Assembly (NCBI GenBank): GCA_015232555.1
Contig: JADFZJ010000002.1
Coordinates: 62,001 to 126,000, forward strand
Direction of reading: 5' to 3'
Length of the DNA stretch: 64,000 nucleotides
Source of the DNA: Desulfamplus sp.
GTDB lineage: Bacteria > Desulfobacterota > Desulfobacteria > Desulfobacterales > Desulfobacteraceae
The translations under genes were made by a program, and so were the position numbers. Below the pieces are notes generated by a model. The model saw only the letters and a program-made list of their open reading frames with translations, made no database searches and was not told the DNA's origin. This document shows, one piece after another, positions 37,697 through 64,000 of the stretch; position 1 is the first letter of the stretch; each line of letters opens with the position of its first letter.

Positions 37697-37749
37697 TTTT
37701 AATTGACTTATAAAAAAAATAATCTTAGTTATAAAGGATTTTTTTAATT

Positions 37750-38040
37750 TCAGGTGTTTATAAAAGGGAATCCTGTGAAAGTCAGGAACGGACCCGCCGC
37801 TGTAACCGGGGATGAAAGCTGCCTTATATCACTGTTTTTTACTCTATCTTCTCATCTGTTTGATTCATAATCTTTACCATTAAAATTAATTATGAATTTA
37901 GCAAGATATTTAATTAAGAGAGAGTATGAATGGGAAGATGCAGACGAGTAAGTTGATCCGGAAGTCAGAAAACCTGCCTGAATAAAAATTTTTCAGTCCT
38001 TTGTTTCCCGCGAGGTTCGGATAGGACAACAATATAAATA
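37750..38040 (+). promoter_or_regulatory. Cobalamin (B12) riboswitch
   Basis: The aptamer shows AGGGAATCCTGTGAAAGTC, GGACCCGCCGCTGTAACCGG (the B12-box core) and, after a long variable arm, AAGTCAGAAAACCTGCC. It lies on the plus strand upstream of btuC with a terminator between, so excess adenosylcobalamin should reduce expression of the btuCD operon. The peripheral arm of about 110 AT-rich bases (37820-37930) is longer than in compact examples. Confidence 0.92.
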
Positions 38041-61100: not shown

Positions 61101-62680
61101 TAAACGGCTGGGAAGTTCAGGGAGTTCAGCCTGACAGCACTCTTGATGACCAGCTCCAATTCAAACGGTTAGCAGAAAAAAGGGCAAAAGGGGAAAAGTC
61201 GCAGCAAGAGCAGGAGATTCTTGCAACTGGTCTTCTGCCCCCATTTGCCCTTGTTGAGAGGACTCTTCTTCTTGGGCTTGACTGGAAAGTGGAAACAACC
61301 GTAAGCCGATTAAGCCCAACTGGTTCTGCGATTGTGCTTAACCTTCCTCTACTTGAAGGAGAATCTGTCATTACCGAAGGGGTTAGAGTGAAAAACGGTA
61401 TGGCGGAGGTAACATTAAATGCGTCTCAAAACAATATGGCATTTGAATCTTTTTTAGAGACTGCCGAGATAGTTAAGTTACATCATGCCTTGTCTGCTGA
61501 TAGCAAGCAGAATCTTGAGTGGACAGAAATCTGGAGATTAGATGCAAGCCCTATTTTCCACGTTGATACAGAAGGAATTCCAGTTATACTGCATCAGAGC
61601 AATGAAAGATGGTATCCGACATGGCATCCTCTGCCCGGAGAGGAGGTGATATTGAAAATATCTAAACCCAAAGGGATTGGGGGGCAGACCATGACTATTG
61701 AAAAGAGCACTCTTGAGCTTCACCCTGGTCAAAAAACTACACGCTCCATACTTAATCTTTCCATAAAGAGCAGTCAAGGAGGGCAACACTCCATCACAAT
61801 TCCTGAAAAGGCAGAACTTCAAGAGGTAAAGATCAACAGCGAGGTTCAGCTTATCCGTCAAGAGGGGCAGAAGGTTGTTTTACCGATTACCCCTGGCAGT
61901 CAAAATGTTGAACTTATATGGAAAGATGCGAATGAAATAGTATCTCTTTACCGAACACCAAAAATCAATCTTGGCACATCAAGTGTCAATGCTGCTATTG
62001 ATCTGCATATATCTTCTGACAGATGGACGCTTTTTGTTGGAGGTGAACAGCTTATGGGACCTGCTGTGCTTTTTTGGTCAAAAATTATTGTGGTGCTGCT
62101 TGTCTCAATAGGTCTTGCAATGAGTGGCTTGACCCCCTTAAAATTTTACCAGTGGTTTCTGCTTGGAATCGGCATGTCAATGAGCAGTGCACCTGCCTGT
62201 ATATTTGTTGCTGCGTGGCTCGTTATTTTAGATTTTAGGAGAAAGTATGGAGAAAAAAATATTTATGACAATAAATTGACTCGGTTTAGGTTTAATCTTA
62301 TCCAGATAGGTATTGTAGGGTTGACATTTTTTGCAGTTATGTCCCTTGTGTTTGCAGTATCTCAAGGGCTTCTTGGACATCCATCAATGAACATTACAGG
62401 CAATGGTTCATCAGGAAATTTTTTTCGGTGGTATCAAGATATAAGTGATGCTGATTTACCTGTTGCATGGGTATTTTCGCTTCCAATGTTTGCCTACAGG
62501 CTTGCAATGCTGTTATGGGCTTTGTGGCTCTCATTCTGGCTGATTTCGATTCTAAAATGGGGGTGGAGTAATTTTGCTTCGCCTGTGATATGGTTAAAAT
62601 CAACTAAAGCAGCACCAGCAGTCTCATCTGACGATTCAGCATCAGAAAAAAATGAGGCTGAACAAACTAAAGATATTTAG
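58166..62680 (+). CDS. 1504-aa multi-domain membrane protein of unknown function
   Basis: AAGGAG precedes the ATG. A signal peptide (ISYSICFAA) leads into a periplasmic region rich in beta strands (about 25-515). Membrane helices follow at about 519-580, 613-632, 789-810 and 826-845, then a second large periplasmic beta-rich region (about 850-1295), and four or more helices at about 1301-1465. WVLHGKTMRIDCIP and ALHWLPEQVIINGQSSG look like conserved envelope domains, but I cannot name a family. A threefold NTAGVE/NAGVE repeat lies near 425-455. It is a single-gene unit ended by its own terminator. Confidence 0.75.
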   Translation: MKTTYCICKTMILSLLISYSICFAAQIPEYVPENLKPWSGWVLHGKTMRIDCIPNFNDPDAIHCALPTSIVLNLNNNGGEFKQEWQIYHETYITLPGNSSNWPKDVMADNTPAVIIQQNDTYGNILPVVKLLQGRHTITGRFVWQKQPEYIQISSESALIKLFMDNREVEFPTIDDTGRLWLKNKTVNVEEQEENRLKIESFRLIDDSIPSQMLIYATLDVAGAAREVKLGPLYSPKKFIPLNLDSSLPSKLESDGTIRIQLKPGRHSLTLNLRHIGNIESLEFEPPDDGYWSKQEIWSVVRHPDLRIVEISGVSSVDPRMTSLPEEWKSYPAYIMTAKESMKFKEIKRGDPVPPPDQLNLNRTLWLAFDGTGYTVQDRITGKKNSGWRLEMESLMKPGKVTVDGVEQLITNMDLSKHSESKPPNTAGVEASNNTAGVEQSDRKGLNFYKNAGVELRRGIIDLVAESKIEGSVYTIPATGWRHSFQKVTGQLNLPPGWKLVSAKGVDNIQGTWIKRWSLLDIFIVLIFTIATAKLFSMPLAFVGFITMVLLYHEPDAPRYVWLFLILGFAFNRAQKELNSYSKDTILQSSTSNRETQSLTDTHHRKFGKMVNLYQFIVLISLLVISVPYAVNSLRIGIYPQLENRWISMNDAMQNQPQMAFEKFSGSSPSQLPTEALPEAPADGYNMQTQYREESKGQSMDAMPSPRKAKSPLAYLKSEKESLESQINDKMYGQENKQRSKIMQYDPKSLTQTGPGLPLWQPFRTINFSWSGPVEQGQTTSFILVGPIFNLVLAFVRVALIILLTLGMVRASGLFKGKLKTDTAKILIYILISASIFIIVNPCVTNSGEIPSKEMLAELQKRLLEKDRCFPSCADISQMEISIIKPEDIKTDEQLVITLDVDAAVDTAIPLPGHALHWLPEQVIINGQSSGSLFRYGQNIWAMIPKGKNVVVVQGRIGNQSIFQLPLALKPHSGKINNLNGWEVQGVQPDSTLDDQLQFKRLAEKRAKGEKSQQEQEILATGLLPPFALVERTLLLGLDWKVETTVSRLSPTGSAIVLNLPLLEGESVITEGVRVKNGMAEVTLNASQNNMAFESFLETAEIVKLHHALSADSKQNLEWTEIWRLDASPIFHVDTEGIPVILHQSNERWYPTWHPLPGEEVILKISKPKGIGGQTMTIEKSTLELHPGQKTTRSILNLSIKSSQGGQHSITIPEKAELQEVKINSEVQLIRQEGQKVVLPITPGSQNVELIWKDANEIVSLYRTPKINLGTSSVNAAIDLHISSDRWTLFVGGEQLMGPAVLFWSKIIVVLLVSIGLAMSGLTPLKFYQWFLLGIGMSMSSAPACIFVAAWLVILDFRRKYGEKNIYDNKLTRFRFNLIQIGIVGLTFFAVMSLVFAVSQGLLGHPSMNITGNGSSGNFFRWYQDISDADLPVAWVFSLPMFAYRLAMLLWALWLSFWLISILKWGWSNFASPVIWLKSTKAAPAVSSDDSASEKNEAEQTKDI

Positions 62681-62720
62681 AGCCTGAACATTTAAACAGG
62701 CTCTTAAATGTTTTTTTTTC
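62679..62720 (+). terminator. Intrinsic terminator of the 1504-aa gene
   Basis: AGAGCCTG (62679-62686) and CAGGCTCT (62697-62704) form an 8-base stem, followed a few bases later by a long T-run. The stem begins within the stop codon. Confidence 0.85.
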
Positions 62721-62729
62721 TTTTAACCG

Positions 62730-62758
62730 TTGACAATGATATTGCAACTATGTATAGA
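62730..62758 (+). promoter_or_regulatory. Sigma-70 promoter of the DAHP synthase leader
   Basis: TTGACA (62730-62735) is followed after exactly 17 bases by TATAGA (62753-62758), preceded by an extended TG. Transcription would begin near 62765, about 65 bases before the leader peptide. Confidence 0.75.
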
Positions 62759-62776
62759 AACAACATCTTAATAAAT

Positions 62777-62827
62777 TTAAACTAAGAGAATACGTTACTA
62801 CTTTAAACTAAAGGAACAAGTTACTAC
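62777..62827. repeat. 25-bp direct repeat ahead of the leader peptide
   Basis: Two copies (62777-62801 and 62803-62827) both run TTAAACTAA to GTTACTAC and match at about 21 of 25 positions. The second carries AAGGA, the likely ribosome site of the leader peptide. Confidence 0.7.
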
Positions 62828-62828
62828 A

Positions 62829-62903
62829 ATGAACCAGAATTTTTCAGGCAGCTACTATTACTTTGGAACCTATTACTACAGGTGGCTGCCTGTGCTGTTC
62901 TGA
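62829..62903 (+). CDS. Tyrosine-rich attenuator leader peptide
   Basis: This 24-codon frame holds SYYYFGTYYYRW: six Tyr, one of its two Phe and one Trp. Tyr comes in two runs of three. It ends in TGA just before the arms of a terminator and precedes a DAHP synthase. This is the arrangement of ribosome-mediated attenuation, where scarcity of charged tRNA(Tyr) stalls the ribosome and favours the antiterminator. Confidence 0.85.
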   Translation: MNQNFSGSYYYFGTYYYRWLPVLF

Positions 62904-62959
62904 TTTGTAACTTATATACAATATGAAAAGCCGCAGGTCAAAAGCCTGCGGCTTTTTTA
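62845..62959 (+). promoter_or_regulatory. Aromatic amino acid attenuator (pause, antiterminator and terminator arms)
   Basis: CAGGCAGC (62845-62852) can pair with GCTGCCTG (62885-62892) as a 1:2 hairpin. CCTGTGCT (62889-62896) can pair, with one bulge, with AGCCGCAGG (62929-62937) as an antiterminator. The terminator arms AAAAGCCGCAGG (62926-62937) and CCTGCGGCTTTT (62945-62956) are perfectly complementary and end in a T-run. The structures are mutually exclusive as attenuation requires. Confidence 0.8.
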
Positions 62960-62981
62960 TTTTTAAAAGGAGAACAGAATA

Positions 62982-64000
62982 ATGAAAAAGACCTATGATG
63001 TAAATGTTGAAAGTTTTATGCCTCTTATAGCTCCTGAGGATTTTAAGAATCAGTTTCCGATGACCCCAGAATCAGAAGATGCTGTTATCGTCGGCAGAGA
63101 GGAGATAAAAAATATTCTTTCATGTAAGGATAAGCGTCTGATGGTAATTACTGGACCATGCTCAGTCCATGACGAAGCTGCCGCAATTGAGTATGCAGAG
63201 CGGCTTTCCAAGCTAAGAGAAAAGGTTAAAGATCATTTTGCGATCATTATGCGGGTATATTTTGAAAAACCGCGTACCACCATTGGCTGGAAGGGGCTGA
63301 TAAATGATCCTTATATGGATGACAGCCGTGATGTTATGGAGGGACTCCGCCGTGCAAGGAATCTGCTTATCCGTATCACCTCAATGGGGCTACCTACAGC
63401 AACCGAGCTACTTGACCCGATTATTCCGCAGTTTATTGATGGTCTAATCTGCTGGGCTGCAATTGGTGCAAGAACAACTGAATCCCAAACACACAGGGAG
63501 ATGTCAAGCGGACTCTCTATGCCTGTTGGATTTAAAAATACTACTGATGGGGCACTGGATACAGCAATTAATTCTATGATTGCAGCAAAATCGCCTCAGA
63601 GTTTTCTTGGGATTGATCCGCATGGAAAAGTGTGTGTAGTCAAAACAAAAGGCAACCCCTATGCCCATATAGTATTAAGAGGAGGGAAACGTCCAAACTA
63701 CGACTCGGTAAGTATCAGAGAGGCAGTTGGAACTTTAAAGAAAAAAAATCTATCCCAATCAATTATTGTTGACTGTTCACATGCAAATTCAGGCAAAAAA
63801 TTTCAGGGGCAGGGAATTGTATGGGAAGATGTGATAAATCAGTATTTGAACGGAAATAGTAGTATTAAGGGGCTTATGTTAGAGAGTAACCTGTGCGAAG
63901 GCAACCAGAGCATTTCCTGTGGTCCTGAAAATCTTCAATACGGTGTATCTATTACGGATGAGTGTATATCATGGGAGACAACTGAAGAGCTTATATTGAA
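62982..64000 (+). CDS. 3-deoxy-D-arabino-heptulosonate 7-phosphate synthase, type I (partial, runs off right edge)
   Basis: About 339 codons are present with no stop before the window edge. AAAAGGAG lies upstream of the ATG. MVITGPCSVHDEAAAIEYAERL, MRVYFEKPRTTIGWKGLINDP, GARTTESQTHREMSSGLSMPVGFKN and IIVDCSHANSGK identify the AroF/G/H type that condenses PEP and erythrose 4-phosphate in the first shikimate step. Enterobacterial paralogues are feedback-inhibited by Tyr, Phe or Trp. The Tyr-rich leader suggests tyrosine as the controlling amino acid here. Confidence 0.95.
   Translation, partial: MKKTYDVNVESFMPLIAPEDFKNQFPMTPESEDAVIVGREEIKNILSCKDKRLMVITGPCSVHDEAAAIEYAERLSKLREKVKDHFAIIMRVYFEKPRTTIGWKGLINDPYMDDSRDVMEGLRRARNLLIRITSMGLPTATELLDPIIPQFIDGLICWAAIGARTTESQTHREMSSGLSMPVGFKNTTDGALDTAINSMIAAKSPQSFLGIDPHGKVCVVKTKGNPYAHIVLRGGKRPNYDSVSIREAVGTLKKKNLSQSIIVDCSHANSGKKFQGQGIVWEDVINQYLNGNSSIKGLMLESNLCEGNQSISCGPENLQYGVSITDECISWETTEELIL

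Follow-up and report, generated by a model that had tools for sequence, protein, structure and literature searches.

A probable ribosome-mediated attenuator with aromatic codons upstream of DAHP synthase in Desulfamplus and other Desulfobacterota

We analyzed a 64,000-nucleotide stretch of Desulfamplus sp. DNA (contig JADFZJ010000002.1 of assembly GCA_015232555.1), hereafter called the window. Near its end, a complete leader is located between an ORF of 1504 amino acids that stops at position 62680 and the start of a DAHP synthase gene at 62982, with all the features described here on the plus strand. The DAHP synthase (62982 to 64000, continuing beyond the window end; 350 amino acids in L001) is of the class I AroF/G/H type, scored 464.9 bits against TIGR00034 (cut-off, 173.2) and is preceded by a ribosome-binding site, AAGGAG, at 62967 to 62972. 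A search confined to this enzyme type found a single match to the protein in its own genome. The nearest named relatives are Desulfamplus MAGs, whose DAHP synthases are 89 to 91% identical, and NCBI places Desulfamplus in the Desulfobacteraceae, Desulfobacterales, phylum Thermodesulfobacteriota (here called Desulfobacterota). At the end of the upstream gene, we read from the sequence a terminator-like hairpin (62680 to 62719) with arms GAGCCTG (62680 to 62686) and CAGGCTC (62697 to 62703) and a T run at 62711 to 62719. This hairpin, which separates the leader from the 1504-amino-acid ORF, is missing from the list of our terminator scanner, whose loop limit is 8. Elsewhere in the window, we noted a Cobalamin riboswitch (37735 to 37995, 87.1 bits), and a tRNA search of the window found none.

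The leader begins with a putative promoter at 62730 to 62758, composed of TTGACA (62730 to 62735), a 17-nt spacer and TATAGA (62753 to 62758). A consensus promoter scan, which accepts only second hexamers ending in T, did not list it and returned instead another site at chance level (1 found versus 1.1 expected). The promoter call therefore rests on conservation: both hexamers are kept in five of six aligned Desulfamplus sequences, the window counted, and the sixth has a gap there. Downstream, a weak candidate ribosome-binding site, AAGGA (62811 to 62815), stands 13 nt from the ATG, a long and poor spacing. The leader ORF (62829 to 62903) encodes the peptide MNQNFSGSYYYFGTYYYRWLPVLF in 24 codons followed by TGA. 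It carries two Tyr-Tyr-Tyr runs as control codons, TAC TAT TAC at codons 9 to 11 (62853 to 62861) and TAT TAC TAC at codons 15 to 17 (62871 to 62879), so that its aromatic run amounts to six Tyr and one Phe. Among 2000 dinucleotide shuffles of the 400-nt region upstream of the gene, only 3 produced an ORF in which 7 or more of 10 codons were aromatic. No NCBIfam or Pfam model matched the leader peptides that we tried. In the 5′ untranslated part, a tandem repeat with a 26-nt unit and 85% identity occupies positions 62776 to 62827, a stretch at which the alignment shows gaps for the other Desulfamplus sequences, and part of the repeat unit resembles the second Tyr-codon stretch.

Between the leader ORF and the structural gene lies an intrinsic terminator, and folding of the region delineated four strands that form three competing helices. 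Strand 1 (CAGGCAGCTACT, 62845 to 62856) pairs with positions 62881 to 62892 of strand 2 (62881 to 62896), an assignment based on folding and covariation. Strand 2 can alternatively pair through 62888 to 62896 with part (62929 to 62938) of strand 3 (62925 to 62938), which is the 5′ arm of the terminator. This 2:3 helix is short in the window, with 7+2 pairs only (62888 to 62894 with 62932 to 62938, plus 62895 to 62896 with 62929 to 62930). Strand 4 (62944 to 62964) comprises the 3′ arm (62944 to 62957) and a T-rich tail; helix 3:4 extends over 14 pairs (62925 to 62938 with 62944 to 62957), within which the 12-nt arms at 62926 to 62937 and 62945 to 62956 are 100% complementary. Helix 2:3 thus shares strand 3 with the terminator, so that the two cannot coexist, and helix 1:2 in turn prevents helix 2:3. 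The region folded with a z score of −5.02, equalled by 0 of 200 shuffles, and the terminator scanner reported three sites (shuffle mean, 0.1), which are all forms of this one hairpin, including a minus-strand one. A preliminary description of this DNA had claimed a promoter, a 24-codon leader with two Tyr-Tyr-Tyr runs, mutually exclusive hairpins and a perfect 12-base terminator ahead of the first shikimate-pathway gene, and each of these elements was recovered at the positions given above.

We then compared orthologous upstream regions, as that description had proposed. The six Desulfamplus regions (window counted) aligned with an intact leader and terminator. At the family level, 86 Desulfobacteraceae genomes were searched, 77 had a DAHP synthase match, and 70 had a usable gene start; G015, G021, G032, G033, G039, G042, and G079 were dropped owing to a missing gene start, a cut gene or a short match only. 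An aromatic leader was found directly 5′ of DAHP synthase in 69 of the 70 genomes. In the remaining one (G077), DAHP synthase closes an operon, pheA-aroE-aroA-aroK-aroC-tyrA-DAHPS (genes named by eye), and the leader MMKVVATGRFFFYFGYYFYHTDLPVVR precedes pheA at the operon head (78.1 bits). ORFs with at least 6 aromatic codons in 10 (ATG or GTG starts, 10 to 45 codons) were present in 69 of 70 family regions of 400 nt, compared to 19 of 1400 dinucleotide shuffles and none of 71 DAHP synthase loci from other lineages (L008 to L081, with L039, L068, and L075 omitted for having little or no upstream sequence).

The leader appears to be under selection at the level of its codons. In seven equal-length leaders out of nine from the genus Desulfamplus, TAT/TAC variation occurred at all six Tyr codons, and 40 of the 42 codon instances encoded Tyr, the two others being one Leu and one Phe. 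Two leaders were omitted from this count for their length: in G006 the first Tyr position is occupied by Phe, and in G004 TFFH replaces the second Tyr run. The C terminus of the peptide, LPVL(R/F), behaves differently, since the G082 ORF ends earlier and the G004 and G060 peptides differ at that place, whereas the corresponding strand, CTGCC(T/C)G, persists in all three. The C terminus thus seems to be kept for the RNA rather than for the peptide.

Next, we evaluated the helices in alignments of relatives. In 34 family sequences (A3, taken from 47 diverse rows out of the 69 in A2), 90.6% of the cells in helices 1:2 and 3:4 were paired, with 22 double-change cells, and 0 of 500 shuffles reached either value. 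In an alignment of 88 sequences that adds other families and phylum members (A4), 135 double-change cells were counted for these two helices, where shuffles gave 45.9 and slid registers no more than 22, with the caveat that A4 was fitted to the structure, which favors it. In the same 88 sequences, 94.0% of terminator cells were paired. Helix 2:3 gave a less uniform picture. Its cells were paired at 85.8%, versus at most 53.6% in slid registers (88 sequences). Column shuffles matched its observed pairing in 165 of 500 cases for the family set; for the larger set, the pairing was reached by 1 of 500 shuffles and the covariation score by none, while its 7 double-change cells were reached by 26 of 500 shuffles and slid registers gave 1 to 9. 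The mean 2:3 duplex energy was −15.0 kcal/mol with the own partner, −13.9 (standard deviation [SD], 0.15) with swapped partners, and −7.75 after base shuffling, an own-partner advantage that may in part reflect relatedness. Hence, helices 1:2 and 3:4 covary, and helix 2:3 is conserved with weak covariation.

Folding of the 69 family sequences agreed with this competition. With strand 4 absent, the 2:3 core was in the minimum-energy fold of 62 sequences, and strands 2 and 3 paired in a different register, judged by eye, in the 7 others; with strand 4 present, the terminator was in the best fold of all 69. Helix 1:2 alone was part of the minimum-energy fold in 51 sequences. RNAalifold run on all 69 sequences recovered the terminator only. 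The terminator and its T tract are kept in nearly all 69, an exception being G060 (L135), which has one mismatch and no T run. This conservation bears on the idea that the leader acts on translation instead of transcription, through attenuation or coupling that opens or closes the DAHP synthase ribosome-binding site. Such control could find a basis in the window, where CTGTTCTGATTT (62895 to 62906) is 83% complementary to AAAGGAGAACAG (62966 to 62977), a segment that contains the ribosome-binding site of the gene; a conserved terminator with its T tract, placed upstream of that site, makes it highly unlikely as the main mode. As an observation on the window alone, the complementarity may point to an additional translational control.

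Terminators accompanied by alternative helices are also typical of metabolite riboswitches and T-boxes, in which the RNA would sense an amino acid or uncharged tRNA directly and the ORF would be accidental. No Rfam family matched the leader at gathering score, and it did not qualify as a T-box, His_leader, Thr_leader or trpB motif. A relaxed Rfam search of positions 62600 to 63100 gave sub-threshold matches only (trpB RF04312, 31.5 against 59 bits; His_leader, 22.3 against 49) and no T-box. Together with the conservation seen at the codon level, these results leave a direct sensor hardly credible.

To survey the distribution of the leader, we built a covariance model from it (R1). R1 matched 238 of 291 genomes of the order Desulfobacterales at an E value of ≤0.01 (159 of 174 among the better genomes), a rough figure that bare terminators inflate and the stricter filters used deflate. 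As minus-strand terminators reached 24 to 52 bits with R1, low-scoring matches were not counted as leaders. With an aromatic leader in all 70 usable family genomes and this rough proportion of the order, the earlier expectation that such an element would be unusual for the phylum did not hold. In the genome of the window, R1 gave five matches at an E value of ≤1, and a single leader was found, that of the window. The other matches were the minus strand of the window's own palindromic terminator, which is not another leader, both strands of a bare terminator at C39 (neighbor genes named by eye), and a weak match of 22.3 bits.

Beyond the family DAHP synthase set, we inspected 72 of the 150 best places (E values down to 7e-10), 60 chosen to spread over families and 12 others. 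They comprised 26 leaders before DAHP synthase, 39 before ADTH synthase, 5 before pheA, 1 before aroE, and 1 masked. The first 60 contributed 24 DAHP synthase and 29 ADTH synthase genes (identified by tblastn), the 5 pheA genes, the aroE gene and the masked place; the other 12 contributed 10 ADTH synthase and 2 DAHP synthase genes. The pheA and aroE targets were taken from the longest ORF, four of the pheA genes by eye. NCBIfam models confirmed ADTH synthase (TIGR01949), prephenate dehydratase and shikimate dehydrogenase in a single case each, together with one DHQ synthase II following ADTH synthase (partial sequence); the ADTH synthase example matched no DAHP synthase model. All 60 places held an aromatic-rich ORF with at least three aromatic residues in a row, which is partly expected among the best matches of a model made from the leader sequence. 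The downstream genes provide independent evidence: they were identifiable at 59 of the 60 places, and all 59 belong to the aromatic pathway. One of the 60 is a second leader (L236) in the family genome G085. The genome G146 also has three leaders (L227, L228, and L229), two of them ahead of DAHP synthase genes and one ahead of aroE, which looks like a regulon of repeated attenuators.

DAHP synthase and ADTH synthase begin alternative routes to dehydroquinate. Since the leader precedes either DAHP synthase or the unrelated ADTH synthase, it is, judged from the genes that it adjoins, a follower of the metabolic step and not of the enzyme family. Of 297 genomes sampled across the phylum, 13 matched R1 at an E value of ≤1e-9, a much stricter threshold that makes this count not comparable to the 238 of 291 obtained at ≤0.01. 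Seven of these leaders lie outside the order. Three precede DAHP synthase, and one heads an operon of aroK, aroC, a type I-beta-like DAHP synthase gene, aroB, and a chorismate mutase gene (by eye). The three others (L251, L254, and L256) have downstream genes without an obvious aromatic role. L251 and L254 (G453 and G575) are Tyr-rich leaders before an acyl-CoA synthetase-like gene (by eye), one of them with eight consecutive Tyr, MKHNQFMQVYYYYYYYYTKGRNLPAY; in G609 (L256/L258), the leader MTANQSRAYLYYYYYYTKRRGLLMD stands before a metallo-beta-lactamase-fold-like gene (by eye).

The near invariance of the terminator sequence and the similar bare terminator elsewhere in the Desulfamplus genome (G000, C39) would also fit a constitutive terminator or a small-RNA locus, where a short transcript would simply stop at the hairpins and the ORF would have no role. 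That explanation leaves unaccounted for the synonymous Tyr changes, the aromatic runs above the shuffle level, the tie to aromatic genes and the covarying 1:2 helix, and we regard it as very improbable. Owing to the conservation, the two covarying helices and the synonymous codon changes, a ribosome-mediated transcription attenuator of DAHP synthase is strongly supported, and we consider this reading of the element highly probable.

From the arrangement of the sequence, we infer how termination, ribosome stalling and the response to amino acids would proceed in cells. RNA polymerase would begin transcription slightly 3′ of 62758, with a ribosome trailing on the leader ORF. When charged tRNA-Tyr (and tRNA-Phe) is ample, the ribosome would reach the stop codon; as this codon (62901) lies just past strand 2, the finishing ribosome would cover strand 2, strand 3 would pair with strand 4, and the terminator would leave DAHP synthase untranscribed. 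When Tyr (or Phe) is scarce, the ribosome would stall within codons 9 to 17, and helix 2:3 would form before strand 4 exists, blocking the terminator and allowing transcription of DAHP synthase. If translation is absent, helix 1:2 would form, followed by the terminator. A ribosome halted at codons 9 to 16 would leave strand 2 free, and one halted at codon 17 would contact its border; when halted at the first Tyr run, the ribosome would mask strand 1 as well. This geometry is deduced from the coordinates and an assumed ribosome footprint, and the first Tyr run fits it well, the second less clearly. The leader thus very probably turns on the first enzyme of the aromatic pathway when tyrosine or phenylalanine is short. 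Leaders of this class would serve many Desulfobacterales genomes in the same way, before the first committed enzyme or, in some cases, pheA, aroE or an aro operon.

We then considered which amino acid is sensed. The 69 family leaders contain on average 5.1 Tyr, 3.4 Phe, and 0.42 Trp; both Tyr and Phe occur in 63 of them and Trp in 29, and of Tyr and Phe, the former is the more frequent in 44 and the latter in 12. Among the 60 order-level leaders, 59 have both Tyr and Phe and 34 have Trp. A typical relative carries a mixed Phe/Tyr run, often with Trp, such as FYFYFRYYFYTGLPVLR. A strictly tyrosine-specific attenuator, for which the charging of tRNA-Tyr alone would matter, would agree with the six Tyr codons against one Phe in the window, with the retention of both Tyr-Tyr-Tyr runs in five of nine leaders of the genus, and with the Tyr-only leaders of another genus (g8; for example, MNLSATDRSYAYYYVYYYTHLPGLP). 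It is nevertheless unlikely, as codon 12 or its equivalent encodes Phe in all nine Desulfamplus leaders and the mixed composition just described prevails in the family and the order. Furthermore, the Corynebacterium glutamicum aroR leader (Phe-Tyr-Phe), located before aroF, is reported in the available part of PMC11802643 to respond to Phe and not to Tyr, so codon content alone cannot settle the signal, and the weighting of Tyr, Phe, and Trp proposed here is an estimate from codons. The class is best called aromatic rather than tyrosine specific, with Desulfamplus as a Tyr-weighted form. Accordingly, the designation "tyrosine attenuator" in the preliminary description suits the Desulfamplus weighting and not the class, and its proposal of ribosome-mediated attenuation of DAHP synthase by Tyr codons stands, on the grounds of conservation, covariation and synonymous change, except that the signal is probably not Tyr only.

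Many relatives carry a second terminator. It follows the first within 70 nt in 43 of 78 order- and phylum-level sequences (the 88 of A4 minus nine reference rows, including L153, and the masked L200), for example, in L170, L171, L172, L176, L091, and L093, compared to 2 of the 69 in the family set; the window has a single terminator and no second hairpin. The 5′ arm of the second terminator tends to complement the 3′ arm of the first. In the 78 sequences, strand 4 and the downstream sequence paired with a mean energy of −15.6 kcal/mol (swapped partners, −14.2 [SD, 0.12]; base shuffled, −9.7), and in the family with −13.1 (swapped, −12.4 [SD, 0.09]; base shuffled, −9.1), values to be read knowing that the base-shuffle control is weak, that the gap to swapped partners may reflect relatedness, and that a second terminator copying the first yields 4:5 complementarity by itself. 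As a lead only, pairing of 2:3 plus 4:5 could disarm both tandem terminators in a coupled six-strand switch. The his leader has strands A to F, which the six-strand version resembles in plan.

The trp, his, and pheA attenuators of Enterobacteria combine a leader ORF rich in codons of the pathway product, competing 1:2, 2:3, and 3:4 helices and a terminator before the gene. The leader described here shares with them a codon-rich short ORF, three competing helices and an intrinsic terminator; it differs in that the Desulfobacterota codons are mixed Tyr/Phe(/Trp) and the target enzyme catalyzes the first common step of aromatic synthesis. The trpL and pheL leaders are described in the available part of PMC11802643. 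For C. glutamicum, attenuation by the aroR leader upstream of aroF was reported (Neshat et al. 2014; PMC11802643 and PMC4046766, in the parts available). As in our case, aromatic codons precede a DAHP synthase gene; compared by description in those parts, aroR has three named aromatic codons, against about seven in the run of the window, and belongs to another phylum. The uORFC-13-1 motif, a computational prediction with 24 representatives from Acholeplasma and unknown environmental sequences, lies ahead of aroF and likewise associates a uORF and a terminator with a DAHP synthase gene, but the available text of PMC8632094 describes it with at least one Phe codon and mentions no Tyr run. In Escherichia coli, an aroF-tyrA attenuator sensing Tyr-tRNA was hypothesized (Camakaris 1980, as cited in the available parts of PMC8632094 and PMC2659441), which, like the leader of the window, would control a DAHP synthase, and aroF is assigned to TyrR/TrpR repression in the part of PMC11802643 at hand. 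The accessible portions of PMC2965389 and PMC4833913 contain nothing on Tyr leaders or Desulfobacterota. For this lineage, the leader is not described in the literature searched, which left most subscription journals outside. The mechanism itself is known; what is new is its aromatic, lineage-wide use, independent of one enzyme family.

Altogether, we lean toward the view that the Desulfobacterota possess an attenuator-based aromatic regulon, in which homologous leaders with Tyr, Phe, and often Trp codons stand before DAHP synthase, ADTH synthase, pheA, aroE, and aro operons, and which has a six-strand, double-terminator version in many species. The leader model could aid the annotation of leader peptides, and the Tyr/Phe/Trp mix, which varies over more than 100 leaders, offers a ready test of codon choice versus attenuator sensitivity. 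How sulfate-reducing bacteria regulate their entry into aromatic amino acid synthesis seems not to have been reported in the literature searched. If the leader is truly tied to the metabolic step, it would represent a regulatory RNA that has outlived the replacement of the enzyme that it controls.
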